A stretch of DNA of 64,000 nucleotides. It comes from Lachnospiraceae bacterium (GTDB taxonomy: Bacteria; Bacillota; Clostridia; Lachnospirales; Lachnospiraceae). Location of the stretch: positions 60,745-124,744 of the forward strand of contig SVDL01000001.1 of the NCBI GenBank assembly GCA_015057835.1. The letters are read 5' to 3'. Positions 1 through 39,800 of the stretch are shown one piece after another (position 1 is the first letter of the stretch; each line of letters begins with the position of its first letter). Made by a program: the position numbers and the translations under genes. The notes beneath the pieces are model-generated. The model made no database searches, was not told where the DNA came from, and worked only from the letters and a program-made list of their open reading frames with translations.

Positions 1-2414
1 TGCACCCGCAGATTCTGCACCGCGGTATTATTTCTCCACAGCCACTCGTGCACGTACCACCCCATGACGGTCGGAAGGCCCGTCGCGACGCTGACCCGGC
101 CGTAATCGCTGTAGCTGTCGCCATTTGCCTCCAGAATGACCGGCTGGTCCGGCACATGGGAATTGAGCCAGGCGACTGCGCCGAAATCATTTGGGAAATC
201 TTCGGAAATAAAGACCGACGCATCCGTGCTGATCCGTTCCGAAGGCCGGAAAATATTCCCGAACCAGTCATGTACGCTTCGGAAAATGAAGCCTCCCGTG
301 AGCGCCAGCATCACAAGGCCGACGACCGCTCCGGCAAATGCGGCCTTCCCGATCCGACGATCCTCCCCGGTAAATGCTATCTTCCCGGTCTGACGGTCTT
401 CTCCGGCAAATCCGTTCTTCCCGCTCCGACGTTTCTCCCCGTCAAATGCAGCCTCTCCCGTTCTGCCCCCTTCACTTTCCTCCGTCCGCACTGCCTCAAA
501 AGAAGCGGATCTCGCCGACGCCTCCTCAAGATACAGGACGATCGCCCGGACGAGCACATAGCCCATCACGATCCCGAACAGGATAAATGCCTGATAGGTC
601 AGCTTGAACATCGTGTTGGCGCGGTAGTGGGAAGCGGTGTAAATGTCCTTGACATAGATCACTTCCGGCATCCACACAAGCCCCATCGCGCACGCCGCGA
701 ACAGGACCGCCGCCATATCCGGCAGGGTGAGATTTTCAAAGAAATCAAGGAATGCCGTCAGAGCTGTCTGCAGGGCATGTTTTACTTTTATCCATTTTTC
801 CCGGGCCGTGTCTTCGCTGCGCTCTTCGAGAGCGATACCCGGGGTTTCCGGTTCACTGTCTTCGCGGGATTCGTCATTTTTCCCGGATTCAGCAGCTTCC
901 GAAGCAGCTGCTCGGACCGCCTGCACCCTCTCCCGGATCCTCGCCGCGATGAACCATACGGAGACCGTCACCGGAAGCCACCAAAGGATCAGCAGCTGAT
1001 AAAGCGGGGAGTGCGAATGGGTCTTCCCGATCTCGCTGGAGATCTGGTCAAATGTAGACGTAAACGGCAGTGCCGCGATCTTTCCGCACAGGAACATCAC
1101 GGCGGCCTCCGCGATCATCACTGTCCAGAAGATCTTCGGGGACTTCCGGTATCTTCTGAGATTCGTAAAAAATATGATCGAGCCGCAGACGACGTAATAA
1201 ATCGGGAAATCCCAGAAATTCGTCCATCGGAACAGACCGGTCACAAGTCCGATCAGCAGGATCTCCGGGCGGAAGATCCCCCGAATAAAGGAAAATACCT
1301 TCTCCGCCTGCTCTTCTGCCGCCGCGGAATCAAAGTGTTTCTGCCCCGCCGCGCTGTCCGTTCCGGAGAGATTTTCCGCGCCGTTCCTGTGCGTCATAAG
1401 TCTGTTCCGGAACGCGAGTCTTTCATTTTCCATAAACTGTCGTCTCGCCCAGGCGTAGACGACTGCGGTCACGAGAACGACAAACAGGATATTGATATAA
1501 TGCGCGTGCAGATCTCCCAGCACCGTGGAATAGGAAGGAAATTCGTGGATCGTCTTGTCCTCCGTGTCCGGGTGATAGCCGATATAGCGCGTCGAATCCG
1601 GAAACCAGTAATAATACGTTGCCGCAGTACCGTTGATCTTTTTGATGAGCGGCACGATGATCCCGTAAATGACATAGTGAAAATTTCCGCAGAATGCGAC
1701 CGCGCACCCCGCGGCAGTGCCGGCAGCGATCTCCGCCGCTATATTCCGCATACCGGATCCGGCGCTGTTTTTCCCTCCGCGCAGCCCGTTCAGGCGGTCC
1801 GCCATCATCTGCGAAGTCAGTGAGAACGGCAGCATGCAGCTCATGGCCGCGATCAGGGCGCGCATAAGATTATAACCTTCTCCGGCGCGCACCTGGGACA
1901 GGCGCACAAGCCAGGCGGCGATATACTGGCCGCCGTAATAATAGTTGACGGCTTCCCCGGCGTACCACGGATCGGCAAACGGCATGTAGTCGCTGCGGAG
2001 CATGGAGGTCATAAAACCGTAATCCATGAATTTTTCCGTGCCGTAAGCCTCCGGCCGAAACCCGATGATATAGGTCCACAGCGCCATCAACAGAAAAAAT
2101 GCGATCTCCTCTCCGAGGATCCGTTTCCACGGAAATGATTTCTTTGCGGCGGGATATCTTCTTCTGTAAATAAGAAAGAGTATGCCGAAAACCGCTGCCG
2201 GGAGCAGCAGCATGAGAAAGCAGTTCAGTGTCCGGAAGCGCATTCGGTGCATGCAGTTCAGGACCCACATCGCATATGCCCCGGCCAGAATGCCGAGGCT
2301 CTTGGAAAAGATCCACCCCCGGTCGTTCCATCCGTCAAAGAGCAGCATGGAAAGCGGCATGTAGACCATGCCGATCCCGAGGATCACAATATACCAGATC
2401 AGAAAAATAACCAT
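1..2414 (-). CDS. DUF2298 / YYY-domain polytopic membrane protein (3' end truncated by window start)
   Basis: Manual minus-strand translation from ATG (2414-2412) is open to position 1: MVIFLIWYIVILGIGMVYMPLSMLLFDGWNDRGWIFSKSLGILAGAY...KFMDYGFMTSMLRSDYMPFADPWYAGEAVNYYYGGQYIAAWLVRLSQV...; YYYGGQ motif and many hydrophobic segments. Not in the ORF track because it has no stop inside the window. Confidence 0.85.
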   Translation of the reverse strand, partial: MVIFLIWYIVILGIGMVYMPLSMLLFDGWNDRGWIFSKSLGILAGAYAMWVLNCMHRMRFRTLNCFLMLLLPAAVFGILFLIYRRRYPAAKKSFPWKRILGEEIAFFLLMALWTYIIGFRPEAYGTEKFMDYGFMTSMLRSDYMPFADPWYAGEAVNYYYGGQYIAAWLVRLSQVRAGEGYNLMRALIAAMSCMLPFSLTSQMMADRLNGLRGGKNSAGSGMRNIAAEIAAGTAAGCAVAFCGNFHYVIYGIIVPLIKKINGTAATYYYWFPDSTRYIGYHPDTEDKTIHEFPSYSTVLGDLHAHYINILFVVLVTAVVYAWARRQFMENERLAFRNRLMTHRNGAENLSGTDSAAGQKHFDSAAAEEQAEKVFSFIRGIFRPEILLIGLVTGLFRWTNFWDFPIYYVVCGSIIFFTNLRRYRKSPKIFWTVMIAEAAVMFLCGKIAALPFTSTFDQISSEIGKTHSHSPLYQLLILWWLPVTVSVWFIAARIRERVQAVRAAASEAAESGKNDESREDSEPETPGIALEERSEDTAREKWIKVKHALQTALTAFLDFFENLTLPDMAAVLFAACAMGLVWMPEVIYVKDIYTASHYRANTMFKLTYQAFILFGIVMGYVLVRAIVLYLEEASARSASFEAVRTEESEGGRTGEAAFDGEKRRSGKNGFAGEDRQTGKIAFTGEDRRIGKAAFAGAVVGLVMLALTGGFIFRSVHDWFGNIFRPSERISTDASVFISEDFPNDFGAVAWLNSHVPDQPVILEANGDSYSDYGRVSVATGLPTVMGWYVHEWLWRNNTAVQNLRV

Positions 2415-2655
2415 ACTACCCCCCGGCCGTTCTCCCCCGGAAGAGGGGGCTCCGGCCGATCCCTCAGAAAATGCTCCACTGCGTCCTTCACACTGTCATC
2501 GCGCCGGTGTGCTCTTACTTGTTTCAGTATAAAACCGGACGGCTGCATTTTCAATGAGCAACCTTCGGTTATGCTTGACTAACAGTATTTTCTCCTGATA
2601 ATCTCTTAATATCAAGAATAATTACTGTTTTTAGTTTTGCCAGGGGAGTACCGCC

Positions 2656-3039
2656 GTGCAGGTCAAATACAGCAGACAACGGGAAGCGATACTGCATTTT
2701 CTGGAAAGCCGCAGGGACCATCCTACGGCGGACGTTATTTATGCGCACCTGAAAATGCAGGACCCGAAGATCAGCCTCGGAACGGTCTACCGCAACCTCT
2801 CCCTGCTGACGGAACTCGGAAAGATCCGGACCTTCGCGACCGGCGACGGGAAAGAACACTATGATCCCAACACCTCGGCCCACAGCCACCTGATCTGCCG
2901 CTCATGCGGGTCGGTGTCGGATGTCGACGTCATTTGTCCAGAAACCACGGCGCAGCAGGCGGAAAATAAAAGCGGCGGACGCGTTGAGGACTCGCAGCTC
3001 TTCTTTTACGGGCAGTGCGAAAAATGCGCAGGAAAATGA
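2656..3039 (+). CDS. Fur-family transcriptional regulator (PerR-like)
   Basis: 127 aa, GTG start; winged-helix pattern SLGTVYRNLSLLTELGKI and HSHLICRSCGSVSDVDV metal-site region plus C-terminal CEKC. Confidence 0.85.
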   Translation: MQVKYSRQREAILHFLESRRDHPTADVIYAHLKMQDPKISLGTVYRNLSLLTELGKIRTFATGDGKEHYDPNTSAHSHLICRSCGSVSDVDVICPETTAQQAENKSGGRVEDSQLFFYGQCEKCAGK

Positions 3040-6487: not shown

Positions 6488-7531
6488 TCACACCGCGGCG
6501 TTTTGCGCGGCATCCTCATCCGGCCTGTTTTTCCATTTCGGGCACGGTCCGACGGTCTCCCTGCAGATGAATCTCGACAGAAGACTCACATTCTGGATGG
6601 CCGTGTTCGGATCCTTGATCCGTTTGTGGAGCAGCGCGAGGGCTATATCCACCTGATCATTGATATTGCAGTCGACGGAGGCGATCACTTTGCGGTCCTG
6701 CAGGACCAGTTCGCTGTTGTCGACCGCCACGATCGAGAAATCTTCCGGGATCCGGAACCCTGCCTCGGCGATCGCCTGCCCGGCTCCGACCGCCATATCG
6801 TCATAATCACAGAAGATGGCGGAAGGGATCCTGTCTTCCTTAAGCAGCTCCGTCATGAGCCGGTATCCCGCTTCCTCGTAGCGAAGCCCCGAGATCGCCT
6901 CGTACCGGTCCTCTTCGCGGATCCCGTAGCGCTCCATCGTCTTCCGGAAAATGGCGTGCCGCTTTCCGGAATGCTGTTCACCGAGATACGCGAACCGGCG
7001 GTGTCCGTTGTCGAGAAGTGCCCGGATCGCCTCATCGATCCCGGTCTCTTCATTAATGTAAATATAGTCGTAACTGTAGGTCTCCATGACCGGAATGACC
7101 GAGCAGGAGACGATCGGGACGCGGAACTGTTCCGGAATCAGGTTATTCTCGAGGGCGGCGATGCAGATCACGCCGTCCACGATCCTTGTCTTCTCGAAAT
7201 AGTGGCAGATATCTTCCGCGCGCTGATCGGAGAACAGGGTATCCACGGTGAAAACGATCCCTTTCTCCTCGGCGATCCGCTCGTTGAACCGCATCAGCAG
7301 ATTCGAGTAATACTTGGATGTCTGATCCGTGAACAGGATCCCGACTTTCATTCCCGAGAAGGCTGTCCCGCCGGAATTTGCGGGAACCCGCTTTGTATAT
7401 CCGTGCTCCTGCGCCAGCTTTGCGATATATTCCTTCATTCTGCTGCTGACGTCACTCTGATCGTTGAGCGCTTTGGAGACCGTCGCCGGCGAAACCCCCG
7501 CAATCTCAGCAAGCTGTCTGATGGTAATCAT
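6488..7531 (-). CDS. LacI-family transcriptional regulator
   Basis: 347 aa; N-terminal MITIRQLAEIAGVSPATVSKALNDQSDVSSRMKEYIAKLAQEHGY HTH; periplasmic-binding-like C-terminal domain. Confidence 0.92.
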   Translation of the reverse strand: MITIRQLAEIAGVSPATVSKALNDQSDVSSRMKEYIAKLAQEHGYTKRVPANSGGTAFSGMKVGILFTDQTSKYYSNLLMRFNERIAEEKGIVFTVDTLFSDQRAEDICHYFEKTRIVDGVICIAALENNLIPEQFRVPIVSCSVIPVMETYSYDYIYINEETGIDEAIRALLDNGHRRFAYLGEQHSGKRHAIFRKTMERYGIREEDRYEAISGLRYEEAGYRLMTELLKEDRIPSAIFCDYDDMAVGAGQAIAEAGFRIPEDFSIVAVDNSELVLQDRKVIASVDCNINDQVDIALALLHKRIKDPNTAIQNVSLLSRFICRETVGPCPKWKNRPDEDAAQNAAV

Positions 7532-7575: not shown

Positions 7576-8679
7576 TCATTTGTAAATATTTTTTCCGCTG
7601 TTCTTATCAAAAACCAGCACAGCGTCTTTTCTGACCAATAGATCCATCTCTTTTCCCTCTTCGTCCGGAAATCCCTCCGAGGACAGCGAGGAAAAGGAAC
7701 CCGGGAGCCCGTCGACCGAAAAGAGGATCTGCACACCGGTACCGGCCCGCGCGAGCCCCGAAAACTTCGTGCGGATCCGAAGCGCGTCCGGTTCTGTGTT
7801 CTCCGCCTCCGTGAGCAGCTGTTCCGGACGGATCCCGACGATCACTTCTTCCGGGAGATCCATTCCGCTCTTCCGCTCCGGGAGCACAAGACTCTGCCCC
7901 GCAATTTCCGCTATAACGGAATCCCCGTCCGCTCTTAAGGAAGCCGGAAACAGATTGATCTTCGGACTGCCCAGAAATTCCGCCGCAAACAGGCTGTCCG
8001 GATGCGCGTAGACCTCCGCCGCGCTGCCCGAGGACTCGATCTTCCCGTCCTTCATAATGGCGATCCGGTCCGAGAGCGTCATCGCTTCGTTCTGATCGTG
8101 AGTGACATAGATAAATGTCGTCTCCGGCATCAGGCGATGCGCTTTTCTGACCTGTGCCCGGAGTGTCTCCCGCAGTTCCACGTCAAGATTGGCAAAGGGC
8201 TCGTCGAGGAGAAATACGACCGGTCTGCGCACCATCGCCCTCGCGATCGCTACCAGCTGCCGCTGTCCGCCGGACAGCACTCTCGGTCTTCTGTCCAGCA
8301 GATCGGAAATACCGAATACTTCCGCGATCTCCCTCACCTTCCGGTCGATCTCCTCTTTCGGCATTTTCCGCGATTCCAGCGGATAGGAAATATTCCGGTA
8401 CACGGTCCTGTGCGGATAAAGGGCAAAATTCTGGAATACCATCGCCGTATTTCTGTCCTGTACCGCGACATTCTTTACGGAGACATCATCAAACAGGACG
8501 TCGCCCTCCGACGGGCTCGTGATCCCGGAGATCAGCCGCAGAAGCGATGTTTTTCCGCAGCCGGAAGGTCCCAGAAGCACGAAGAACTCCCCGCTGCCGA
8601 TCGTAAGGCTCACGTCATCAACGGCGAGTTTCTTTTTCGTATATCCCATTTTCACATGGTTGAGGGTTATCTTAGCCAC
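7576..8679 (-). CDS. CUT1-type ABC transporter ATP-binding protein (MalK/UgpC-like)
   Basis: 367 aa; GPSGCGKT, LSGGQRQLVAIARAM, VFLLDEPFANLD, THDQNE plus C-terminal TOBE-like region. Confidence 0.9.
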   Translation of the reverse strand: MAKITLNHVKMGYTKKKLAVDDVSLTIGSGEFFVLLGPSGCGKTSLLRLISGITSPSEGDVLFDDVSVKNVAVQDRNTAMVFQNFALYPHRTVYRNISYPLESRKMPKEEIDRKVREIAEVFGISDLLDRRPRVLSGGQRQLVAIARAMVRRPVVFLLDEPFANLDVELRETLRAQVRKAHRLMPETTFIYVTHDQNEAMTLSDRIAIMKDGKIESSGSAAEVYAHPDSLFAAEFLGSPKINLFPASLRADGDSVIAEIAGQSLVLPERKSGMDLPEEVIVGIRPEQLLTEAENTEPDALRIRTKFSGLARAGTGVQILFSVDGLPGSFSSLSSEGFPDEEGKEMDLLVRKDAVLVFDKNSGKNIYK

Positions 8680-8919: not shown

Positions 8920-10278
8920 TTAAATGATCTCGATGTTCAGGATCCTGCAGATATCCCTGATCTGCTCGGAATAATCCCCGTAAGCCACAATAACGTGCTG
9001 GCAGCTGACTTTCTGGGCAAATTCCTCCACGGTGCAGCTGTCCGGGAATACCTGCAGCGAGCAGAGCTGCGGTGCCGGATCGTCCCATCCGAATTCGTTC
9101 CATGCCGGCGGCGTCTTCGCTTCCGCCGTGTAATAATGCATTTTATATTTGCCGTCACTGAACACAAGGCGCGCGCAGGTCACATATCCGGTCTTTACCT
9201 TGGAGACATTGAGGAGGGACTTATTGAGAAGTCCGAACGCCACCGGGGTCATTTTCACGTCTCCGTCGATCGCCGGGACCGGCATAAAGTCCGGCACCCC
9301 GATCAGCATGGAATCCTTAAAGAATTCATAGTACTCCATATATGGCACGGTCTGGCCGGAAAGCCCCTTCATGAGGAGCTGCGTGACGCCGCCCATGACA
9401 TCATTTTCCGGAATCGTCAGCACGCCGTAGAATCTCTCGAGAAGCATAAATACCATTGCCGGCGGGAATCCGCAGAGCTTCTTCATGCCGTCGACATCAA
9501 TGAGGGTAACGGCCTGAAGCTTTCTCTCTTTGATCTTCATGCCCACGGCCAGTGCGTATTTGACGCCCTGTTCGATCGTCGAATCATCGCAGGCCGGCTC
9601 GATCTTCCAGTTTTCCCTGACATAGCGGATCCCTTCCTCTACGTCCTTCGGATCGAGCTTTTCGATGTTCTGCACCATTTCGAGCATCTCAAAAGGCTCC
9701 ACCTCGACGCCGATCTCTCTGCGCAGCGAGAATCCCTCGTACTGAGTCCCGTAGAGCAGCATATCGCGGTAGCCCATCGTGCCGAGCCTTGCATCCCGAA
9801 GCTGCGCGGCCGTATGCGCGGCGTCTACCCAGCTCTGGATCTTCGCTTTCGGCCACTCTTCTCCGATCACGTTGTAAATATATTTGAAGGTATAATGCAT
9901 TTCCTGGAAAGTCGGACGGATCGCTGTCGTACCGGCCTGTTCCGCCGTCGTAATGATCTTTCCGTTTTCTTTCCATCCGCACAGTCCCCACAGAAGCATC
10001 GGAAGGAAGCGGAAATGATCCGTCACCTTGATGACGGCATGGGTCGGCACCCAGCCCATCACGCATACCAGCAGGGTCTCAAATTCCTGTGCCTTCAGTT
10101 TCGCGATCGCGGCGTTTGCCGCGTCATAAGCCGGATCATCGATCACGATTCCGCAATCGATGAATTCTCCGTCCAACCCCTTCAGGAATTCGACCACTTC
10201 ATCATGTTTCAGCTGCAGTCTCTCATACGGCGTATTGATCTCACCGAAACAAACAAGACCAACTGTTTTTTTATCCAT
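8920..10278 (-). CDS. L-fucose/L-arabinose isomerase family protein
   Basis: 452 aa; FucI-like architecture (VGLVCFGEINTPYERLQLKHDEVVEFLKGL...LIDVDGMKKLCGFPPAMVFMLLERF). Confidence 0.75.
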   Translation of the reverse strand: MDKKTVGLVCFGEINTPYERLQLKHDEVVEFLKGLDGEFIDCGIVIDDPAYDAANAAIAKLKAQEFETLLVCVMGWVPTHAVIKVTDHFRFLPMLLWGLCGWKENGKIITTAEQAGTTAIRPTFQEMHYTFKYIYNVIGEEWPKAKIQSWVDAAHTAAQLRDARLGTMGYRDMLLYGTQYEGFSLRREIGVEVEPFEMLEMVQNIEKLDPKDVEEGIRYVRENWKIEPACDDSTIEQGVKYALAVGMKIKERKLQAVTLIDVDGMKKLCGFPPAMVFMLLERFYGVLTIPENDVMGGVTQLLMKGLSGQTVPYMEYYEFFKDSMLIGVPDFMPVPAIDGDVKMTPVAFGLLNKSLLNVSKVKTGYVTCARLVFSDGKYKMHYYTAEAKTPPAWNEFGWDDPAPQLCSLQVFPDSCTVEEFAQKVSCQHVIVAYGDYSEQIRDICRILNIEII

Positions 10279-10343: not shown

Positions 10344-12122
10344 TTATTCCTTTCTGATGACCCGACGGCGGATCACCGGATAAACCAGAAATACGTTGAC
10401 GAGTGTTGTTAACGAGAACATGGCGGCAACGATATACAGGATGCTGCGCGGCCACAGTCCGATGCCTCCGAGACCGAAACTCAGGAGACTTATGAGGAGC
10501 GCCGGCAGTGTTCTTTTCACGGTCGTGACCGCGAGAAGAAATGAATTCCTGAGCAGGATCCCCACCGGAAGATCGACCCGCGCGTTCATCGGGAAAAACC
10601 AGATCCCTGTCATAAATACCAGCAGAACCAGAAAGATCATGACAGCCCCGAGAAAGATCAGATACGATCTCGTCGCTGCGAACTGCGCATAAAGCAGGGC
10701 GACGTAGCCGAATAAAAGCATCATGGCCGCGAGGACCGCTCCGCCGAGGGTCGACCTCAGAAAATCTCTCCGGAAGGCTTTCCAGTAATCCCTGCGGAGC
10801 ACATGGACTTCATTTTCCTCCATCATGATGCAGATCCTGTTCATCGCGGTGAGCGCCGCCGGAATCGTGATGATCCCGATGCAGCTCACGATAAACAGCA
10901 GATTGAGCTTCAAAAGCTCCCACCACTCGTTCAGGAGCACCTGTCCGAAGCGCCGGAATCCGGATTCTTTCTCCTCCGTTTTATCCGTCTCCCGGACGGC
11001 TGCATTCCGGATCCTCACCGGAATGGCTGTCACACCGAAATCTTCCGTCATTCTCCGTCCCGTCTCGGGATCAAAAAGATGCATGGATTCCGCAGATGCT
11101 CTGAGATAGATCTTCTCCCCTTCTTTGGGGACTTTTCCCTTGAGGACCGCCGTGACCGGTACGCCCCGGGCAAGACATTCGACTTCCGAGCGGGCTCCGG
11201 CCGGACGGACGCCTGTCACTTCCGCCTCAAAGCCCTCTTTCCCTTCACTGAGAAAAACAGTGTCCGGGCGGAATGCCGCTGTGAGGCGCTGTCCGTTTCC
11301 GGGTCTTGTCCGGAAGCGCTCATTCGGGAAGCGGAACTCTTCTCCCAGGATCCCGCATGCAATGCCGTCTTTACCGGAAACCGCTTCCGTCTCCAGAAGA
11401 TTCATTTTCGGACGGCCTACAAATCCCGCCGTGAACAGATATTCCGGATTCGACCAGATCTGTTCCGGTCTGCCCTCTTCCGTGATCTTTCCGCGATTCA
11501 TGACCGCGACCCGGCTTCCGGTCTCCATAGCCTCGCTCTGGTCGTGGGTCACATAGATAAACGTCGACCCGAGCGTTTCGTGAATCTTCAGGAGATCGTC
11601 TCTCAGGCTCTCCCGCATTTCCGCGTCCAGGTTGGAAAACGGCTCGTCGAGCAGGAATACGGACGGTTCCCGGACTAGCGCCCGGGCGAGAGCTGCCCTC
11701 TGCTTCTGGCCTCCCGAGAGAGACCGCGGCTTCTCGTTCAGAATATCCTCGATTCCGAGTCTCTTTGCGGCGCTGCGCACCCTCCGGTCGATCTCCGCGT
11801 CCTTCAGGGAGAGATTTTCCAGCGGAAATGCGATATTCCGGTAAATATTCCGGTCCGGATACAGCGAATAATTCTGAAATACCATCGCCGTGTTCCGCTT
11901 CTTCGGCGGAAGGCCCGTCACGTCCTTTCCGTCAAAAAGGATCTGTCCCTCCGTCGCCGGATCAAGGCCGGCGATCATACGGAGCAGCGTTGTCTTCCCG
12001 CATCCGGTCGGTCCGAGGAGGACGAGAAACTCTCCGTCTTCGATCACGAGATCGGCGCCGCGGACCGCTTCCGTCCCGTCCTCATATATTTTTTTGATAC
12101 CTTTTAATTCAATCTTTGCCAA
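10344..12122 (-). CDS. ABC transporter ATP-binding protein fused to C-terminal YesL/DUF624-like membrane domain
   Basis: 592 aa; complete ATPase (GPTGCGKT, LSGGQKQRAALARAL, VFLLDEPFSNLD, THDQSE) plus TOBE-like region; residues ~388-592 (nt ~10344-10961) match YesL pattern: LLKLNLLFIVSCIGIITIPAALTAMNRICIMMEENEVHVLRRDYWKAFRRDF. Confidence 0.88.
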   Translation of the reverse strand: MAKIELKGIKKIYEDGTEAVRGADLVIEDGEFLVLLGPTGCGKTTLLRMIAGLDPATEGQILFDGKDVTGLPPKKRNTAMVFQNYSLYPDRNIYRNIAFPLENLSLKDAEIDRRVRSAAKRLGIEDILNEKPRSLSGGQKQRAALARALVREPSVFLLDEPFSNLDAEMRESLRDDLLKIHETLGSTFIYVTHDQSEAMETGSRVAVMNRGKITEEGRPEQIWSNPEYLFTAGFVGRPKMNLLETEAVSGKDGIACGILGEEFRFPNERFRTRPGNGQRLTAAFRPDTVFLSEGKEGFEAEVTGVRPAGARSEVECLARGVPVTAVLKGKVPKEGEKIYLRASAESMHLFDPETGRRMTEDFGVTAIPVRIRNAAVRETDKTEEKESGFRRFGQVLLNEWWELLKLNLLFIVSCIGIITIPAALTAMNRICIMMEENEVHVLRRDYWKAFRRDFLRSTLGGAVLAAMMLLFGYVALLYAQFAATRSYLIFLGAVMIFLVLLVFMTGIWFFPMNARVDLPVGILLRNSFLLAVTTVKRTLPALLISLLSFGLGGIGLWPRSILYIVAAMFSLTTLVNVFLVYPVIRRRVIRKE

Positions 12123-12131
12123 GGCGCCGGA

Positions 12132-13004
12132 TTATCCTTTCACGGCGCCTTCAGTGATGCCGGCGACGAACTGCTTATTCATGACAAGGAACAGGATCAG
12201 CATCGGCATGACCGCCAGCATGGTGCCCGCCATCATGAGGTTGTACTGCGTCGCGCCGGAACCGCCCGAGGACTGGAGCTGCACGACCGCCACGACCAGC
12301 GTCGTAAATTTCGGCGTGCCGGCCAGCATGAGGTTCGGCAGCAGGTAGTTATTCCAGGAAGCGCGGAACGACATCAGTGCGATGGTCGCGAGGATCGGTC
12401 TCGAGAGGGGGAGAATGATCCTCCACCATACGGAGAAGAACGAGCATCCGTCGATGACCGCCGCGTCATCCATATCCTTGCTGATGGTCTTCAGGTAGCC
12501 CATCGTGAGGAACAGGTTGCTCGCGCCTGCCGTGGCGAACTGCACGATGGCGAGACCGATCAGGTTGTTCAGTTTCAGTTTCGTAGTTGTCTGGAGAACC
12601 GGGTACATGGTAACAGTGCCCGCCGCGACGAACATCGTCCCCATAAAGATCCAGTAGAGCAGATCCCTCCCGGGGAAATTGCCCCTCTGGAAGCAGTACG
12701 CCGACATAGACGTAAATACGACGACCAGCACGACGGTGAGGAGTGAAACAAGGACGGAGTTCCTCGTGTAGTCGGCATAGTTGACAGAGCTCTTTCCGCC
12801 GATGGAATCCATTCCCCAGACCTGTTTGAAGTTGTCAAATGTCGGTTTGGCCGGGAACGGGTTGATACCGCCCAGAGCGATCTCCTTATTGGTCTTTAAG
12901 GAAGCGCCCGCCGTATAGATGAGAGGCGTCAGCGTGATGATCGCGATCAGTACAAGAAAAATATATAGGAAGATTTTCCCCCGCAGCGACATTCGGAAAT
13001 TCAT
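12132..13004 (-). CDS. CUT1 ABC transporter permease (MalG-like)
   Basis: 290 aa; EAA-loop-like DDAAVIDGCSFFSVWWRIILPLSRP; C-terminal GITEGAVKG. Confidence 0.92.
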   Translation of the reverse strand: MNFRMSLRGKIFLYIFLVLIAIITLTPLIYTAGASLKTNKEIALGGINPFPAKPTFDNFKQVWGMDSIGGKSSVNYADYTRNSVLVSLLTVVLVVVFTSMSAYCFQRGNFPGRDLLYWIFMGTMFVAAGTVTMYPVLQTTTKLKLNNLIGLAIVQFATAGASNLFLTMGYLKTISKDMDDAAVIDGCSFFSVWWRIILPLSRPILATIALMSFRASWNNYLLPNLMLAGTPKFTTLVVAVVQLQSSGGSGATQYNLMMAGTMLAVMPMLILFLVMNKQFVAGITEGAVKG

Positions 13005-13020: not shown

Positions 13021-13935
13021 TTAATAGATATCCGAGCTCTTCTTGGTGGCCCGGAGGTAGATCAGCGTTACGATCGTGAGAATGATCGCCGTGATAACGG
13101 TCAGTGCGGATCCATAGCCGTAATCCTTCGCCTTGACGCCTCCGTCTCCGAAGAACGTCTTGTAGATATACGTCATCATCACCTCTGTCTTTCCGCTGGG
13201 CTTGCCGTTCGTCAGCGTGAGGACGAGGTCCGTCACCTTCAGGGATCCGAGCACCGCGTTCATGAGGACCATCTGCAGAACGGGGCCGAGAAGAGGGATC
13301 GTGATCGTGAAGAACTGCCTGCTGTTGCTGGCACCGTCGATCGCGGCCGCCTCATACATCTCAGGTGAGATGCTTTGTATCCCCGTCATGAAGAACAGCA
13401 TATTAATGCCGAAGTTCTGCCAGATCGAAGCGATCATGATAACCAGCATCGCGTGGAACCCGTCCGCGAACCATTTGACGTTGCTTCCTCCCATCACTTT
13501 GATGAACTCGTTGATGACGCCGTGGGTCGTGTTGAACATGAAAGAGAACACGACGCCGATGACCGCCACCGAGACCATGGAAGGCATAAAGTAAATAGTC
13601 CGGAAAGAGTTCTGCCCCTTGATGTTCCTTGTCAGAAGGAACGCAAGGATCAGCGCGAGCGGAATTTCCACCGCCAGTTTTCCGATGGCAAATACAAATG
13701 TATTCTTGACAGCAAGCCAGTATTTCGGGGAGCGCATGAAAACGCGGATAAAGTTGTCCCATCCCACGAATTTCATCGCCCCGTAGCCCCTGTATTTATA
13801 CATACAGAAGCGCAGGATCCAGATCAGAGGAATCACTACGAAGACGATCAGACCTGCCACGCTGCCTGAGATCATAAAGTAACTCTGGACTGTCGCGACC
13901 GCTCCGAGTTTTTTCTCCTTTGCTTTTTTAGCCAT
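13021..13935 (-). CDS. CUT1 ABC transporter permease (MalF-like)
   Basis: 304 aa; MYEAAAIDGASNSRQFFTITIPLLGPVLQ EAA loop. Confidence 0.92.
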   Translation of the reverse strand: MAKKAKEKKLGAVATVQSYFMISGSVAGLIVFVVIPLIWILRFCMYKYRGYGAMKFVGWDNFIRVFMRSPKYWLAVKNTFVFAIGKLAVEIPLALILAFLLTRNIKGQNSFRTIYFMPSMVSVAVIGVVFSFMFNTTHGVINEFIKVMGGSNVKWFADGFHAMLVIMIASIWQNFGINMLFFMTGIQSISPEMYEAAAIDGASNSRQFFTITIPLLGPVLQMVLMNAVLGSLKVTDLVLTLTNGKPSGKTEVMMTYIYKTFFGDGGVKAKDYGYGSALTVITAIILTIVTLIYLRATKKSSDIY

Positions 13936-14436: not shown

Positions 14437-15939
14437 ATGAAAAAGATTTTAGCAATGCTTCTTGTATTAGTTCTTACTCTCGGTCTTGTTGCCTGCGGCG
14501 GCGGCGCTGCCAGTTCCGAAGCGGAAGCTCCGGCAGAATCAGCTGCAGAGGAAGAGACCAAAGAAGAAGAACCGGCAGAAGAGCCCGCTGAAGAACCGGC
14601 GGAGGAAACTGCTGAAGAGGCTGAAGAACCTGCTGAAGAAGCTCCGGCAGAAGCGGGCGACGCTATTACCGTCGTATACCGCTGCTCCGTAGGCGCTTAC
14701 GTCAACGTCCTTCAGGATATGATCGCAAAATACAATGAGGGACAGGGCAAAGAGGACGGCGTTTATATCGACTTCCAGTCTGATATCAACGAATATTCCT
14801 CCAACCTCGACAAACTGATGCAGGCAGGCACACACTTCGACATCTTCGACGGCGGCACAAACAAAGACTGGCTTGCACAGGGATACATCAAATCCATCGA
14901 CTCCATTCTCGAAGAGACCGGCGATCCGGACCTTCAGGCACTCGTAGACAGCTATGAACCGTACATCATCGACGGCGTTATGCGCGTCAACGGCGAGCTG
15001 ATCTGCCTCCCGCTCGAAGTTCTCCCGATCAAGCTTGCTGTCAACAAAGATCTGTTCGAAGCCAACAATCTTGAATATCCGAAGACCCTGTCCGAGATGG
15101 TGGAATGCGCGAAAGTCATCACCGAGAACGGCGGCGGCGATGTATTCGGATACGGCTGGACAAACTGGTCTGTTGCTTTCCGTCGTCTTGCCTGCAAAGC
15201 GACCATGAGCTCCACCGGTGTCGGCTGGTTCAACAACAAGGAAAACAAATACGACTTCACACCGTTCAAGCCGATCGTCGACGCGATGACCGAGATGTAT
15301 CAGAACGGCTGGATCCTCGGCGCTGACGACCTTGCCATCGACCCGATCCGTGCGGAATTCTCCGCAGGCCGCGTAGGCATGTTCCCGGCTCCGGCTTATG
15401 ACGTTTCCGTTTACACGAACCAGTTCCCGGCAGAATGCAACTGGGAAATCATCGATATGCCGCTTTATGACGATGTCACCACCCCGTACAAGGGCGTATA
15501 TCTGACCCGTGTCAACTGCGTCATCGACGCGAAGTGCTGGGATGAAGCGGATGATGCCAAGAAAGCTGCTATCCTGAAAGCATTCCTGTTCATCAACGGC
15601 GACGAAATGAACGCGGAAATCTATGCGAACGGCGGCATGATCCCGTACAAAGAGGATCTGATCGCGAACACACCGCTGAAGGTCGACATCCCGCAGTGGG
15701 CGCAGATGGCCGACATCACCAACTACGGCCCGATCAACCTCTTCCCGGATGCTCTGCTGATGCTTGAAGGCGACAACTTCGACGTAGTCTTCTCCGAGAT
15801 CATGCACGGCGATGCTGAGTGGGACGATGTCATCGACGATCTGAACGAGCGCTACAACGCAGCTTGGGAAGAAGTCCAGGCAGATCCGCCTATGGACCTC
15901 AGCATGTATCAGTATGATTATGATCTGACCCGCAACTAA
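14437..15939 (+). CDS. Extracellular solute-binding lipoprotein (CUT1 ABC transporter)
   Basis: MKKILAMLLVLVLTLGLVACGGG lipobox signal after aggaggg RBS; Glu/Ala/Pro-rich linker; SBP family 1-like body. Track start 14338 overlaps the -35 box, so ATG 14437 is preferred. Confidence 0.92.
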   Translation: MKKILAMLLVLVLTLGLVACGGGAASSEAEAPAESAAEEETKEEEPAEEPAEEPAEETAEEAEEPAEEAPAEAGDAITVVYRCSVGAYVNVLQDMIAKYNEGQGKEDGVYIDFQSDINEYSSNLDKLMQAGTHFDIFDGGTNKDWLAQGYIKSIDSILEETGDPDLQALVDSYEPYIIDGVMRVNGELICLPLEVLPIKLAVNKDLFEANNLEYPKTLSEMVECAKVITENGGGDVFGYGWTNWSVAFRRLACKATMSSTGVGWFNNKENKYDFTPFKPIVDAMTEMYQNGWILGADDLAIDPIRAEFSAGRVGMFPAPAYDVSVYTNQFPAECNWEIIDMPLYDDVTTPYKGVYLTRVNCVIDAKCWDEADDAKKAAILKAFLFINGDEMNAEIYANGGMIPYKEDLIANTPLKVDIPQWAQMADITNYGPINLFPDALLMLEGDNFDVVFSEIMHGDAEWDDVIDDLNERYNAAWEEVQADPPMDLSMYQYDYDLTRN

Positions 15940-16463: not shown

Positions 16464-17990
16464 ATGAGCATCATAAAACTGGGCTGGTCGGAAGCCGACA
16501 TCACGCCCGACAAAAAAGTCTCTCTTGCCGGTCAGTTTGCGGAACGCATTTCCGAATATGTAGAAAAACCCCTCACTGCCACTGCCCTGGCGATCGAAGC
16601 CGGCGGCGAACAGGCTGTTTTTGTAAGCACGGACCTCGTTGCAGTTTCGATCAATCTCGTGGAGGCGGTCCGTGACAGAATCGCGGACAACCGGCTCGGA
16701 CTCGATCCGAAGAAAATCATGATCTCCGCGATCCACACCCATACCGGTCCCGTCTATCCGCGCATCAACGAATGCAAACGGGCGGGCTCCAACGCCGCTC
16801 TTTCCACTGCTTCAAAGGATATCCTGATCGATCTGCTTCCGCCCGGCAGGAAATATGTCGAGAGCGCGCCGGTCACCGACAACCCGGAGATCATTTCCCA
16901 GGAAGAGACTTTTGAACTCCTGGTATCCCGCATTTCCAAAGCGGTCCTGGAAGCCTGGGAAAACCGCGCAGAGGGAAGTTTCTCCAATGCTTTCGGACGC
17001 GCCTCGGTCGGCCACTGCCGCCGTGTCGTTTACTCCGACGGATCCGCCCAGATGTGGGGTGATACCAATACCGCTGTTTTTGAAGAAGTGGAATGTGACA
17101 GCGACGACGGCATCGAACTTCTGTTTATCAATAATGCCGAAGGAAAGCTTACCGGCATCGTGGCCAACATCGCCTGCCCGGCGCAGTGTGTCCAGCACCG
17201 TCTGTTTGTGTCCCCGGATTACTGGGGAGAAGTGAAAGTCCGCCTCCGCAACTATTTCGGAGAAGACCTCTTCCTGCTTCCGCTGTGTGCCCCCGCCGGC
17301 TGCCAGTGCCCCGTCGACATGGTCCGCTGGGTCGCCCCGGAGAGCGACGTCAACGACCCGAATATCGAGCACCCGCACCCGCTTAAGAGAAAAGCGGATC
17401 CTTCCATGTTTGATATTTCCGGCATGAAAGTGACCGGCCGCCGCATCGCGACCGAGATCATTGCTGTTTACGAGGAAGGACTCGACGAACCGCAGAAAGA
17501 TGTAGAGTTTAAGCACGAAGTGGAGATCATGGAGCTTCCGCTGCGCCGCGCGACCCTCGCCGAATACGAAAAAGCCAAACGCGGCGTCAAAGAATATCTC
17601 GCGGAGCACCCCGGCGACGTCAACTTCTACGATGCCGCCAAGATGCAGGTGGATCTGGGCGTTCTCTCCCGCTTCGCTCTTCAGGAAACCATGAATGTCG
17701 TTCCGATCGAATCTCACATCCTGAAACTCGGAACAATTGCGTTCTCGACGAACCCGTTTGAGCTGTTCCTTAAATACGGCAACCAGATCCGCGTCCGCTC
17801 CAAAGCCGAGCAGACATTCCTCATCCAGCTGTGCAACGGCGCGGAGGGCTACCTCCCCACTGCCAAAGCAGAGCGCGGCGGCCACTACAGCGCTTTCATT
17901 TCCTCCGGCGAATGCGGCCACGAGGGCGGCGATCTGTTTGTGCGAAAGACACTGGAACATATCAACAGGATGTTCCCGGAAGTGGAATAA
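16464..17990 (+). CDS. Neutral/alkaline ceramidase N-terminal-domain-like hydrolase
   Basis: 508 aa; KLGWSEADITPDKKVSLAGQF..., SAIHTHTGPVYPRI, PAGCQCPVDM; paralog of 4951..6423. Confidence 0.75.
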   Translation: MSIIKLGWSEADITPDKKVSLAGQFAERISEYVEKPLTATALAIEAGGEQAVFVSTDLVAVSINLVEAVRDRIADNRLGLDPKKIMISAIHTHTGPVYPRINECKRAGSNAALSTASKDILIDLLPPGRKYVESAPVTDNPEIISQEETFELLVSRISKAVLEAWENRAEGSFSNAFGRASVGHCRRVVYSDGSAQMWGDTNTAVFEEVECDSDDGIELLFINNAEGKLTGIVANIACPAQCVQHRLFVSPDYWGEVKVRLRNYFGEDLFLLPLCAPAGCQCPVDMVRWVAPESDVNDPNIEHPHPLKRKADPSMFDISGMKVTGRRIATEIIAVYEEGLDEPQKDVEFKHEVEIMELPLRRATLAEYEKAKRGVKEYLAEHPGDVNFYDAAKMQVDLGVLSRFALQETMNVVPIESHILKLGTIAFSTNPFELFLKYGNQIRVRSKAEQTFLIQLCNGAEGYLPTAKAERGGHYSAFISSGECGHEGGDLFVRKTLEHINRMFPEVE

Positions 17991-21758: not shown

Positions 21759-23228
21759 TCACTCCTTTGATCCGATCGCCCGGGTGGCCTCAAACAGCGC
21801 ACAGAACATCCGGTATCTTCTCTCCTGTTCCGGCAGGTCCCTGGGGATAAACTCCTGTTTCATGCTCACGGCGGCACGGCAGGCCTCCGAAAGCTCCTCA
21901 TACGCGCCGCAGCTGACTGCCGCCGCGATGCCCGCTCCGAGGCACGCCGCTTCGCTGTCCTTCGGCACAACGACTGGAAGGCCCGTGAGATCCGCCTGCA
22001 TCTGGCACCAGATGGCGCTCTTTGCGCCGCCTCCCGTTGCAATGATCCTTTTTGCATCCGTTCCGGCAGCCCGGATGGAATCGCAGTTCTTGCGAAGAAT
22101 GCAGGCAACGCCTTCCATCACGGCGCCCGCCATATCGACCGCATCGTGCTCCTGCCGGAGCCCCCAGAACACGCCTGTCGCATCCGGATCAAATTCCGGG
22201 GGATTGACGCCAACGATGTAGGGCAGGAAAACCGGCCCTTTCAGCGTATCCCGCTTCGCCAGCTCTTCGTTTAACACATCGTATCCGGTCTCTTTCATGC
22301 AGGATGACCGGAACCACTCGAGACTCACGCCGCCGCTCTCCACTACAGGGAGCATGACGTGGGTATCTTTGAGAAAGCCGTAGTGCATCGCGATGCCGCA
22401 GTCCGGATCCGCCGGCTCCTCCGCCATCACGGCAAGTGCCATGACGGTTCCGGTGGAAAGGCTGACTCCTCCCGCTGTGATATTTCCGGTACCGATCATT
22501 CCCGCGAAATGATCCAGCGTGCCGATATTCACGAGTGTATTTTCAGACAGTCCGGTCTTTTCGGAAGCTTCCGCGCAGACGCAGCCGGCAGAAGAAAGGG
22601 GTTCCGCGAGAGGCGGCAGCTGCTCCGGCCGGATGCCGACTGCATCCATCATTTTTGTCCAGTAGCATTTGCGGTATATATCAAAGTAAAAGGAAAACGT
22701 AGCGATCGACATATCGCACATCATTTTTCCCGTCATTCTCCAGATCATATAATCCTTCAGAAGAAGGTAATGCGCGGCCTTCCCGAAGATCTCCGGCCGG
22801 TTGTTCCGAAGCCACAGGATCTTCGTCGCCGGCCAGGTGGGCAGCACAGCCATCTGCCCGGTCACGCGCCGGATCTCCTCTTCCGTAAACAGGGCGGAAA
22901 GTGTCTCACATTCCTCCCTGGATCTCTCGTCCATCCAGGAGATCGCGTTCATAAGAGGACTGCCATCCTCCCCGAGGATCACAAGCGTCTCCGCCTGTCC
23001 GGTAAATCCGATCCCGCCGATCTCCTCCGCGGAAATGCCCGCGCGCTCCCGAAGCCGCCGGATCATGCTGCAGAAGCTGTCGAAATACTGCTCGATGTCA
23101 AGTTCCACAAAACGTTCCGAACGCGCGTAGATCACTTTCTCCGATTCACGGGAAATACAGGCGAGGGTGCTGTCATAGAGCGCCGCCTTAAGATTTGTGG
23201 TTCCGAGATCCACTCCGATAAAATACAT
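21759..23228 (-). CDS. FGGY-family carbohydrate kinase
   Basis: 489 aa; FIGVDLGTTNLKAALYD, GIGFTGQ, SLSTGTVMA, ATGGGAKSAIWCQMQADLTGLPV. Confidence 0.9.
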   Translation of the reverse strand: MYFIGVDLGTTNLKAALYDSTLACISRESEKVIYARSERFVELDIEQYFDSFCSMIRRLRERAGISAEEIGGIGFTGQAETLVILGEDGSPLMNAISWMDERSREECETLSALFTEEEIRRVTGQMAVLPTWPATKILWLRNNRPEIFGKAAHYLLLKDYMIWRMTGKMMCDMSIATFSFYFDIYRKCYWTKMMDAVGIRPEQLPPLAEPLSSAGCVCAEASEKTGLSENTLVNIGTLDHFAGMIGTGNITAGGVSLSTGTVMALAVMAEEPADPDCGIAMHYGFLKDTHVMLPVVESGGVSLEWFRSSCMKETGYDVLNEELAKRDTLKGPVFLPYIVGVNPPEFDPDATGVFWGLRQEHDAVDMAGAVMEGVACILRKNCDSIRAAGTDAKRIIATGGGAKSAIWCQMQADLTGLPVVVPKDSEAACLGAGIAAAVSCGAYEELSEACRAAVSMKQEFIPRDLPEQERRYRMFCALFEATRAIGSKE

Positions 23229-23935
23229 TATCCGTTCCTCCCTTCCGGAGAGTCAGCAGGCCCTTCTCCTTTTTCCGTTTCATCAAGACAGGCCTTCAAC
23301 GCAGGGAACATAAGGTAGGAAGCTATAAAGCTCATAAAGGAAAACTCGATAAAAATTACGAAAATAATACTGCCCGGAAAAAGCAGAAAGCTCACCGTTA
23401 ACAGCGCCGTATTGATCATTGCCGCCGCAAAGGAGCGTCCCGCATGTGCAAATGCGATATTTTTTGCCGCGGGAAGCAGCTGTCCGTAAGTCATACCGGT
23501 CCGCGCAAGAAGCGGAAATGCGCACACGGCGATCATCTGCTCCAGGATCAGGATACCGGCAGCGATCCCTGCCAGCAAATAAAAGCCCGCTCCTCTCTGT
23601 ACGGCGAGAGAGGAATAAAGAACGATGGAAAGTACAGCAAATGCTTCCGCCGCAAAAAACGTCGCTCCGACGCCGAGGCACCGGAGGAACTTTTTCCGGA
23701 AGGGTTCAAAAAAATCCTTTCCGGGAAAATGATTTTTTCCTTCCATCATATTCATCGTGATCCCGGCCAGTCCGGTCACCGCCGCAGGGATGGTCACCAC
23801 CCCGATACTGATCGGAAGAAAAAGCAGATTTACTATCACAAGATCAAAAAATTCGGCAAAAAGGATCGTCATAAACCGCCAGAACCCGGTCTGCTCCTCC
23901 GGATCCGCGGCAAACAGTCTTTTCTTTTTCTGCAT
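23228..23935 (-). CDS. YesL-family (DUF624) membrane protein
   Basis: 235 aa; FFDLVIVNLLFLPISIGVVTIPAAVTGLAGITMNMMEGKNHFPGKDFFEPFRKKF. Confidence 0.75.
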   Translation of the reverse strand: MQKKKRLFAADPEEQTGFWRFMTILFAEFFDLVIVNLLFLPISIGVVTIPAAVTGLAGITMNMMEGKNHFPGKDFFEPFRKKFLRCLGVGATFFAAEAFAVLSIVLYSSLAVQRGAGFYLLAGIAAGILILEQMIAVCAFPLLARTGMTYGQLLPAAKNIAFAHAGRSFAAAMINTALLTVSFLLFPGSIIFVIFIEFSFMSFIASYLMFPALKACLDETEKGEGPADSPEGRNG

Positions 23936-28752: not shown

Positions 28753-29934
28753 TCAGTCCGTAAGGCTCTTCTCGGTCTCCGCATCGAAGAGATGCAGGAG
28801 TTCCGGACGGAATGTGAAGTGAAGCACTTCACCGTACTTGACAGAAGACGGATCCATCTCGGTGATCGGAACGATCGCGACGACTTCGTTTCCGCCGGCA
28901 TCAAGATGCAGGTGGAGTTCAGCGCCCATCATTTCGGAGACGTCTACCTTCGCGTCAATGCCGCCCTGGTCCACCAGCGTGATGTGCTGAGGACGGACAC
29001 CGGCGATGACGGTCTTGCTTTCGACGCCGTCCGCTTTGAGTTTCGCCTGCTGCTCCGCGGTGAGCTCGATCTTGTGACCGAGGATCTCGACCGAATAGCC
29101 GCTCGCATCTTTGATGAGTTTCGTGCCGTTGAAGAAGTTCATCTGCGGTGTGCCGATAAAGCCTGCCACAAACAGGTTGCACGGATGATTGAATACTTCC
29201 TGCGGCGTGCCAATCTGCTGAATGAAACCGTCCTTCATGATGACGATACGGTCACCCAGCGTCATAGCTTCTGTCTGGTCATGAGTAACATAAATAAAGG
29301 TGGTGTTGATTTTCTGCCGGAGTTTGATGATCTCCGCTCTCATCTGGTTACGGAGCTTTGCATCAAGGTTGGACAGCGGTTCATCCATCAGAAGAACCTT
29401 CGGTTCACGGACGATCGCACGTCCGATCGCGACACGCTGTCTCTGGCCGCCCGACAGAGCTTTCGGCTTACGGTCAAGGTACTGCGTAATATCAAGAATT
29501 TCGGCCGCTTCACGGACCTTCTTGTCGATCTCAGCCTTCGGGGTCTTGCGAAGTTTCAGCGAGAATGCCATGTTGTCGAAAACGGTCATGTGCGGATACA
29601 GAGCGTAGTTCTGGAAAACCATCGCGATATCTCTGTCCTTCGGCGGGATGTTGTTCACCAGCTTATCGTCGATGTACAGCTCGCCTCCGGAGATCTCTTC
29701 AAGACCGGCAACCATACGAAGTGTCGTAGATTTACCGCATCCCGAAGGACCGACGAGAACGATGAATTCCTTGTCTTTGATGTCAAGGCTGAATTCCTGC
29801 ACCGCGACAACGCCTTCGTCCGTGATCTGAAGATTGACCTTCTTCTCCGGAGCATCGCCCTTCTTCGCTTTCTTCTTCTTGCCCTCCTGGTTAGGATAGA
29901 CCTTCTTGATGTTGACTAATTTGACTTCTGCCAT
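28753..29934 (-). CDS. ABC transporter ATP-binding protein (UgpC/MsmK-like)
   Basis: MAEVKLVNIKKVYPNQEGKKKKAKKGDAPEKKVNLQITDEGVVAVQEFSLDIKDKEFIVLVGPSGCGKSTTLRMVAGLEE; complete motifs; start trimmed from track start. Confidence 0.92.
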   Translation of the reverse strand: MAEVKLVNIKKVYPNQEGKKKKAKKGDAPEKKVNLQITDEGVVAVQEFSLDIKDKEFIVLVGPSGCGKSTTLRMVAGLEEISGGELYIDDKLVNNIPPKDRDIAMVFQNYALYPHMTVFDNMAFSLKLRKTPKAEIDKKVREAAEILDITQYLDRKPKALSGGQRQRVAIGRAIVREPKVLLMDEPLSNLDAKLRNQMRAEIIKLRQKINTTFIYVTHDQTEAMTLGDRIVIMKDGFIQQIGTPQEVFNHPCNLFVAGFIGTPQMNFFNGTKLIKDASGYSVEILGHKIELTAEQQAKLKADGVESKTVIAGVRPQHITLVDQGGIDAKVDVSEMMGAELHLHLDAGGNEVVAIVPITEMDPSSVKYGEVLHFTFRPELLHLFDAETEKSLTD

Positions 29935-30206
29935 CTTTCTTGCCTTAGTTACAGTGCCTCCGCATGCTGTAACCTCACGGATCATTCCATCCGCATATAC
30001 GACAGGTCTCCACACTGCCGCACCGCAGGCCACGGTATTTTTTCCTCCTTTTTCCTCGCGACGTATTATTTTTGTGGAGTAACACGCCCGATTGGAATAA
30101 TTTATTTACTAAATTTTACAATAATTTGAGGGCTGGTGCAACGAAAAAGCCGTCAATATTTACGAAACTTCGAGCGAAATTTCAGGGATCCGCGCGCCTG
30201 CGTTTC

Positions 30207-36445: not shown

Positions 36446-37279
36446 TTATCCCTTTACGGAGCCTGCCGCAATACCTTTGATGAAATATTTCTGAAGGAAC
36501 AGGAAAAGTATGATCATCGGTATACTCGCAAGGAGAATGCCCGCAAATGCGTACCCCAGTTCATTTCCCTTCTCACTGAAAAATCCGTTCATGCCGACCA
36601 TCAGCGTAGGATAATCGGTGACGCTCAGGATAGAAAGAGAAACGAGATAGTCGTTCCAGATACCGATGCCGCTGACGATACAGCAGCTCGCGGTGACCGG
36701 AGCAAGGAGCGGCAGGAAAATCCTGCTGTAAACGCCGAATGTGCTGCAGCCGTCTATGTAGGCGGCGTCCTCCAGGTCTCTCGAAATGCCCCTCATGAAT
36801 CCTGTAAACAGGAATGTCGCAAAGGGTATGTTCCATCCCACCTGTATGAGAATAGGCCCGAGAAGGGAGTTATGCGTTCCCAGGTTGACCGCCTGCACGA
36901 CAAGCGGAATAACGCAGGCGACGAAAGGAACCACCATGCAGGTAACAAGCAGCGAATAGTAGAGCTCAAACAGTCTAAAGCGGACTCTGGCGATCGCGAA
37001 CCCCGCGAGGGATGCGCAGAAAATGATCAGAATCAGCGAGATCACCGTGATCGAGCCCGTGTTCCGGATCGCTTTCCAGTATTTCATGGCTTTGATGGCG
37101 CGCGGGAAGTTTCCGAGGGTGAACATCTCTTTTGTGATGATCAGCGGATGCTTGATGATACTTTTACGTGTTTTGAACGCACCTAAAGCAAAGTAATAGA
37201 TCGGCGCAAGCATGAAGACCGTCGCAACAAGAAGGATCAGCTCCTCTGCAAATTTCTTCACATCAAATCGTTTTTTCAT
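36446..37279 (-). CDS. CUT1 ABC transporter permease (MalG-like)
   Basis: 277 aa; EDAAYIDGCSTFGVYSRIFLPLLAP; terminal GIAAGSVKG. Confidence 0.92.
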   Translation of the reverse strand: MKKRFDVKKFAEELILLVATVFMLAPIYYFALGAFKTRKSIIKHPLIITKEMFTLGNFPRAIKAMKYWKAIRNTGSITVISLILIIFCASLAGFAIARVRFRLFELYYSLLVTCMVVPFVACVIPLVVQAVNLGTHNSLLGPILIQVGWNIPFATFLFTGFMRGISRDLEDAAYIDGCSTFGVYSRIFLPLLAPVTASCCIVSGIGIWNDYLVSLSILSVTDYPTLMVGMNGFFSEKGNELGYAFAGILLASIPMIILFLFLQKYFIKGIAAGSVKG

Positions 37280-38193
37280 CAGGCGTCATCCTCCCTTCCG
37301 CGCATGACAAACAGCTGGACCAGCGAAAAGGCCGTGATGATCAGGATCAGAACGACCGCGAGAGCGGAGCTTCGTCCGTACTCATTCGTATTGAACGCAA
37401 AGAACGTAATCCTCTGGCTCAGCAGAAGCGTCGTCGTTCCCGGGCGTCCCTGTGAGATTAAGTAAGGCAGCTCGTAAGACTTATACGCCGCGATGGATGT
37501 CGTCAGCATATTGATCGTGATCGAGGGAGCCATGAGTGGGATCGTAATGTATCTTCTGGCCTGTCCCGCTGTCGCTCCGTCAAGAGCAGCCGCCTCATAG
37601 AGGTCCTGCGAGATCGCCTGCAGACCTGCCATGAAAATAACGACGCAGATACCGATCCTGGCCCATGTGGCGCCGAAAATGATCGCGAAGTTCGTCAGTC
37701 CCACCGTCTCCAGCCAGTTTATCTTCTGTCCGCCGCACGCGACGATGATCTTGTTAATGACGCCGTTGTTGTAGTTATACATCGTGCGCCACAGAATACC
37801 GACGACAACGCCCGAGAGCAGTGTCGGGAAAAACCAGGCCGAACGCAGGAATCCGCGGTTGATCCTGCCCTTTCCTTTTTTATCAAGTGCAAGGGCGACG
37901 ATAAACGCGATCACGATCGTGAGAATCGTCATGCCGACGGCAAAGACCAGCGTGGCCATCATCATCGTCCCGAAACCCTCAAGATGCGCGAGCTTCCGGT
38001 AGTTCTCCAGACCCACGAAGTTCTTATGAGGGCTGATGCCGTTCCAGTCCGTAAAACTGTAATAGAAAACGGTAAATGCCGGTATCACGACAAATACGGC
38101 AGTCATGATCAGAGAGGGAAGGATGAAGAACAGACCGGTTATGATCTGATTTTTCTGTCTCTGTGACATTTTCTTGCGATTATTATTGTCCAT
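37279..38193 (-). CDS. CUT1 ABC transporter permease (MalF-like)
   Basis: MDNNNRKKMSQRQKNQIITGLFFILPSLIMTAVFVVIPAF..., LYEAAALDGATAGQARRYITIPLMAP; TGATG overlap with downstream gene. Confidence 0.92.
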   Translation of the reverse strand: MDNNNRKKMSQRQKNQIITGLFFILPSLIMTAVFVVIPAFTVFYYSFTDWNGISPHKNFVGLENYRKLAHLEGFGTMMMATLVFAVGMTILTIVIAFIVALALDKKGKGRINRGFLRSAWFFPTLLSGVVVGILWRTMYNYNNGVINKIIVACGGQKINWLETVGLTNFAIIFGATWARIGICVVIFMAGLQAISQDLYEAAALDGATAGQARRYITIPLMAPSITINMLTTSIAAYKSYELPYLISQGRPGTTTLLLSQRITFFAFNTNEYGRSSALAVVLILIITAFSLVQLFVMRGREDDA

Positions 38194-38285
38194 TTCTTCT
38201 CCAGTTTTGGCCCTGTATTGACGCGGCCCCAATGTCGGATAACATCGGGGCCGGATACTTCATTCCTGGCTTTCAGGAAACGTCA

Positions 38286-39734: not shown

Positions 39735-39800
39735 AATTCTCCTCCTTTTTTGACTTTTTTCGTCAAATCCAGCCCTTCTTTTTCGCATTTGTTATTATTT

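Follow-up and report, generated by a model that had tools for sequence, protein, structure and literature searches.

A CUT1 ATPase fused to a YesL/DUF624 membrane domain in a predicted sugar importer of a Lachnospiraceae bacterium

The window, a stretch of 64,000 nucleotides, is part of the draft genome of a gut Lachnospiraceae bacterium in 182 contigs. It carries on the minus strand an operon with the gene order MalF, MalG, MalK1-YesL, isomerase-like protein, MalK2, and LacI. The operon begins with a MalF/UgpA-type permease (13021..13935, PF00528, 4.8e-19) and a MalG/UgpE-type permease (12132..13004, PF00528, 1.7e-10), and the stop codon of the latter lies 9 nt before the start of the next gene (10344..12122), which codes for a CUT1-type ATPase joined to a YesL/DUF624 membrane domain and is called MalK1-YesL here. 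The following sugar-isomerase-like protein (8920..10278) has a weak resemblance to fucose, arabinose, and sulfoquinovose isomerases (Fucose_iso_C 8.7e-4 and SftI 1e-10, both sub-threshold). Downstream are a second, unfused CUT1 ATPase, MalK2 (7576..8679, PF00005 and OB_MalK), and at the end of the operon a LacI-family regulator (6488..7531, Pfam LacI and Peripla_BP_3). Two genes diverge from the operon on the plus strand: a sugar-binding lipoprotein (14437..15939, SBP_bac_1 8.2e-14), whose reading frame is listed from 14338 and has its likely start at the lipoprotein signal at 14437, and a ceramidase-like hydrolase (16464..17990) with a weak match to Ceramidase_alk (0.003). The fusion is encoded together with CUT1 permeases and a binding protein, as expected for a CUT1 ATPase.

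The fusion gene is a single open reading frame of 592 amino acids on the minus strand that starts with TTG and has no interruption; on the plus strand the given frame is closed at this place. In Pfam searches, ABC_tran (PF00005) matches residues 22–162 with 9.6e-35 and DUF624 (PF04854) matches residues 404–471 with 1.6e-9 (38.2 bits, above the gathering cut-off of 24.2). The initial annotation, which proposed one uninterrupted 592-residue ATPase and YesL protein and named a missing PF04854 as the finding that would speak against it, is therefore confirmed with both families in one protein. Residues 1–235 (11418..12122) form the CUT1-type nucleotide-binding domain (NBD) with intact Walker A, Q-loop, LSGGQ, Walker B, and H-loop, and residues 236–355 (11058..11417) a fast-evolving, beta-rich, putative MalK-like regulatory domain to which TOBE_2 of Pfam matches weakly (0.0011, under the cut-off). 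Residues 1–357 align with a solved MalK-type chain, and in the AF2 model residues 1–355 fold into these two domains, about 356–387 are disordered, and helices follow. The ATPase is complete, as annotated; with its predicted regulatory domain it ends near residue 355 instead of 375 and is followed by a charged, weakly conserved linker of ∼32 residues with low pLDDT (356–387, 10962..11057) and by the DUF624 membrane domain (388–592 and the stop codon, 10344..10961). The membrane part of the AF2 model has low confidence because only two of four rows span it, and when modelled separately the domain is all-helical with a mean pLDDT of 71.7. Like ATPases of the MsmX/UgpC/MalK type, the fusion has an NBD with all motifs and, probably, a C-terminal regulatory domain; those ATPases, however, end near residue 360–380, whereas the fusion has the added membrane domain and scores 362.2 bits against the UgpC subfamily NF008653, under the NCBI cut-off of 432. 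The fused membrane domain reaches 71.4 bits (E 8.8e-20) with the MusI family NF052431, for which the NCBI cut-off is 160; it is homologous to MusI and by the NCBIfam cut-off is not a member of that family.

A draft genome invites the suspicion that an assembly or sequencing frameshift, which the initial annotation placed around 10940–11000, has joined two neighbouring genes. By searching 42 genomes of the genus we found a second complete fusion (G405:C13, public record JAFOIS010000060.1) in the metagenome-assembled genome (MAG) Lachnospiraceae bacterium RGIG504 from dairy cattle duodenum, which is another species of the same genus and an independent assembly. The RGIG504 fusion (L140, 7571..9346) covers residues 1–592 with 56% identity and no stop. 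As this in-frame ortholog has a different linker sequence, the frameshift is ruled out for all practical purposes. Between the two fusions, identity is highest in the NBD (70%) and the membrane domain (62%) and lower in the regulatory domain (35%) and in residues 356–390 (29%). Between both proteins dN is 0.26 in the NBD and 0.29 in DUF624 with saturated synonymous sites, and these low values despite the saturation indicate purifying selection on both main domains. One could still argue that adjacent genes were joined in the common ancestor in a near-neutral event and that the halves act as if they were separate, as DUF624 genes often adjoin importer genes in the genus and the linker is not conserved. 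Nevertheless, the frame is still open after divergence to 56% identity, and the fused halves would still be kept equal in amount and at the same place; we regard this explanation as improbable. No start codon with a ribosome-binding site within the linker is found in both species: the ATG at residue 358 of the window fusion, with GGAG at −5, is not common to RGIG504, and the in-frame GTG at residue 369 is common to both species and has an SD-like GAGG in RGIG504 only. Some separate translation of YesL may start from this GTG. Both fusions begin with TTG, and these starts possibly set the amount of the fusion relative to the permeases.

In RGIG504 the locus is distributed over two contigs. The ceramidase-like gene, MalF, MalG, and the fusion are on contig C13 together with the first part of the isomerase gene. 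The last part of this gene is found on contig C317, along with MalK2, LacI, and the binding protein, and the split suggests that both contigs join. Compared with the window, both permeases are 79% and the isomerase-like protein is ∼90% identical, but MalK1 is only 56% and MalK2 54% identical. The LacI regulator is 69% identical, the ceramidase-like protein, which is kept beside the operon, 83%, and the binding protein, in RGIG504 located beside MalK2 and LacI, 53%. In a third species (G399), MalK2 is 73% and LacI 93% identical; its assembly is 69% complete and misses the first half of the operon (no close MalG) and is thus uninformative on the fusion.

The fusion occurs in 2 of the 42 genus genomes, while matches to the fused domain are found in 39 of these genomes and in 279 of 397 genomes of the family. 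In the genus list the two fusions are the only 595-aa frames, the next longest being two read-throughs into GH16 with 473 aa, and in the family search all other frames among the matches listed have at most 354 aa. A search with a fusion profile in 392 genomes of the order and 399 of the phylum (partly overlapping sets, the best three candidates per genome being scored) gave no further ATPase–DUF624 fusion among the matches listed. The search for the architecture across wider genomes, as initially proposed, has thus added a second member within the genus and, among the matches listed for order and phylum, none beyond it. No fusion was found in viral contigs or in plasmids, and an initial scan of genome contigs for the fusion gave no match. 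With three candidates scored per genome, these results support that the ATPase–DUF624 fusion is rare and leave its absence elsewhere unproven. Several candidates were rejected: ATPase frames of 645–690 aa from another family of the order have a soluble C-terminal extension which is not DUF624, ATPases of ∼480 aa in the genus resemble PotA, and the fragments of ATPases with which contigs of G420, G421, and G424 end come from unrelated loci.

Two extended frames were encountered along with these searches. MsmX-like ATPases from at least six genomes of a single other family of the order (L107–L113) have a conserved additional C-terminal region of ∼260 aa, which is soluble and probably beta-rich. 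In two loci, L076 (G430:C17) and L078 (G407:C177), 1462..2883, a DUF624 frame is open into a GH16 glycosidase. The junction has a strong SD and an ATG, AAGGAGGAGAATATG, and the 473-aa frame probably consists of two in-frame cistrons; read-through possibly occurs.

In all other cases seen YesL/DUF624 stands alone, save for the probable two-cistron read-through into GH16. Two such genes had been annotated in the window, and Pfam finds DUF624 in both (23228..23935 and 41054..41707). The stand-alone proteins belong to the same family as the fused domain, have the same length and the N-terminal motif GF.RF...DL..LN, and often adjoin MalF and MalG. An ordinary arrangement of this kind is present in the same genome, where a set of MalF, MalG, and binding protein (36446..39788) has the DUF624 gene 41054..41707 nearby. 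No ATPase gene was seen beside this importer set, and the general MsmX/UgpC-type ATPase of the genome is a separate gene elsewhere (28753..30033).

The initial annotation took the function of YesL/DUF624 to be unknown, which no longer holds. NCBIfam MusI_fam is matched by all 30 aligned DUF624 proteins, and deletion of musI reportedly abolishes maltose uptake in Corynebacterium glutamicum. The maltose importer MusEFGK2I of this organism counts MusI as its fifth named component (PMC10101108 and PMC7641384, citing Henrich et al. 2013, J Bacteriol 195:2573). MusEFGK2I (TCDB 3.A.1.1.45) is likewise a CUT1 importer with a membrane protein of the DUF624 family; it differs in that MusI is a separate polypeptide and in that, to judge from its name, a single ATPase gene supplies both ATPase copies, whereas in the window importer one ATPase shares its polypeptide with the MusI-like domain and there are two distinct ATPase genes. 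In this latter respect the importer resembles the CUT1-related glycerol importer GlpSTPQV of Rhizobium, which has two different ATPase genes and is not known to carry a DUF624 fusion. A comparison of the YesL-domain model, which is of moderate confidence, with PDB folds gave nothing significant, and a profile of 30 DUF624 members gave no match to PDB sequences, which leaves the family without a relative of solved structure. RafX/TacL of pneumococcus, which we took for a possible relative of YesL, was set aside, being described as a lipoteichoic acid ligase.

The fusion, the conservation of the operon, and the homology to MusI give good support to the inference that YesL is a member of the complex of ATPase and permeases. 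To this extent the earlier proposal that YesL acts on this complex is upheld; whether YesL is an obligate subunit or, as then suggested, an anchor or regulator are hypotheses which the sequence does not separate. As a mere membrane anchor, YesL would keep the ATPase at the membrane, reserved for its permease, and would have no role in assembly or catalysis. The flexible linker would indeed tether the ATPase, and with a separate general ATPase encoded in the genome such a tether would stop mixing. On the other hand, the membrane domain is nearly as conserved as the ATPase (62% vs. 70%), the motifs specific for DUF624 are kept beyond the needs of a plain anchor, and stand-alone DUF624 genes exist without a fusion. 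Thus, we consider an exclusive anchoring function unlikely.

MalK2, the unfused paralogue in the same operon, was not mentioned in the initial annotation and changes the mechanistic picture drawn there. Trees with up to 51 ATPases place MalK2 and the fused NBD together and apart from the MsmX/UgpC-like ATPases; support is 98/94 in one tree and 100/99 in another, where the grouping also holds without the RGIG504 rows. Because of long branches and a limited sampling of diverged CUT1 ATPases, we refer to both proteins as closest relatives among those sampled. According to the alignment, Walker A, Q-loop, signature, Walker B with its Glu, and H-loop are kept in MalK1 as well as in MalK2. Nine positions at which other MalKs are conserved are altered specifically in MalK1, and five of these (86, 90, 92, 104, and 107) are located after the Q-loop (Fisher p 0.005 for residues 84–118, in a test run after the list of changes was seen and on a region taken from general MalK knowledge). 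The MalK2-specific changes are not skewed toward residues 84–118. The stretch of MalK after the Q-loop is expected to contact the permeases. In E. coli, MalK A85 and K106 are said to have been cross-linked to the EAA loops of MalF and MalG, and we take residues 86 and 107 of the fusion to be the corresponding positions.

CUT1 ATPases are typically homodimers, and MsmK, for instance, is a predicted homodimer (PMC3302838). Given that the catalytic motifs are complete in both NBDs, the fusion could also form homodimers with two YesL domains, with MalK2 acting in another complex or in regulation (for instance inducer exclusion or LacI control). Yet MalK2 is encoded in the same operon with a single pair of permeases, each of the three species in which this section of the locus is seen retains it, and it groups with MalK1; to us a homodimeric fusion appears quite unlikely.

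We suggest that the ATPase gene of the operon was duplicated and that one copy was then fused to a YesL/MusI gene. In the relative G408, MalG is immediately followed by a DUF624 gene that stands alone, at the place which the fusion takes in the window, and this makes duplication and fusion a simple history. From such a history would follow an importer composed of MalF, MalG, MalK1-YesL, and MalK2 in a ratio of 1:1:1:1 plus the binding protein. Its ATPase pair would be a MalK1–MalK2 heterodimer, as we infer from the pairing of the paralogues. Exactly one YesL/MusI domain would be delivered per complex, held by the linker of ∼32 residues, and it would lie in the membrane with a cytosolic N-terminus because it follows a cytosolic ATPase. 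By analogy to MusI of C. glutamicum, our best guess is that the YesL domain is an accessory subunit that helps to assemble or to stabilise the permease–ATPase complex, and the fusion would commit the MalK1 ATPase to the permease of its own operon. Taken together, we lean slightly toward the explanation that MalK1-YesL is a real two-domain CUT1 subunit of the importer encoded alongside, working in a dedicated asymmetric complex with MalK2 and with YesL acting as a MusI. More tentatively, and with a little less than even confidence, we propose that the asymmetry is built in, namely that the duplicate ATPases are specialised, one carries YesL/MusI covalently, and each complex contains one YesL.

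The fusion is real, conserved, and rare, and the importer is a variant of known CUT1 importers. In gut Firmicutes, proteins of the DUF624/YesL family are found widely next to sugar importers, and their role is barely known beyond one corynebacterial importer. As YesL/MusI normally stands alone, its fusion to an ATPase suggests that it is physically built into the importer, and its role thereby becomes testable; a natural fusion with both parts under selection is evidence for action at the ATPase/permease complex. If our proposal is true, YesL/DUF624 would be a position-specific subunit of CUT1 importers and more than an operon neighbour. The fusion also supplies a covalently linked construct for structural work and, with the proposed stoichiometry, a specific prediction.

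Some observations concern the genes around the operon. Relatives of the isomerase-like protein outside the genus (G338, G326, and G211) are found in other contexts without the fusion. In G338, which belongs to another genus of the family, the ceramidase-like and the isomerase-like genes also occur together (L141), there adjoining the gene of a double-ATPase (CUT2-like) importer instead, and this co-occurrence suggests a shared, predicted sugar pathway. Beside the RGIG504 operon are an M20 amidohydrolase and a gene matching a lasso peptide C-terminal Trp epimerase (L140, 862..2166, minus strand; 7e-73, well under the cut-off).
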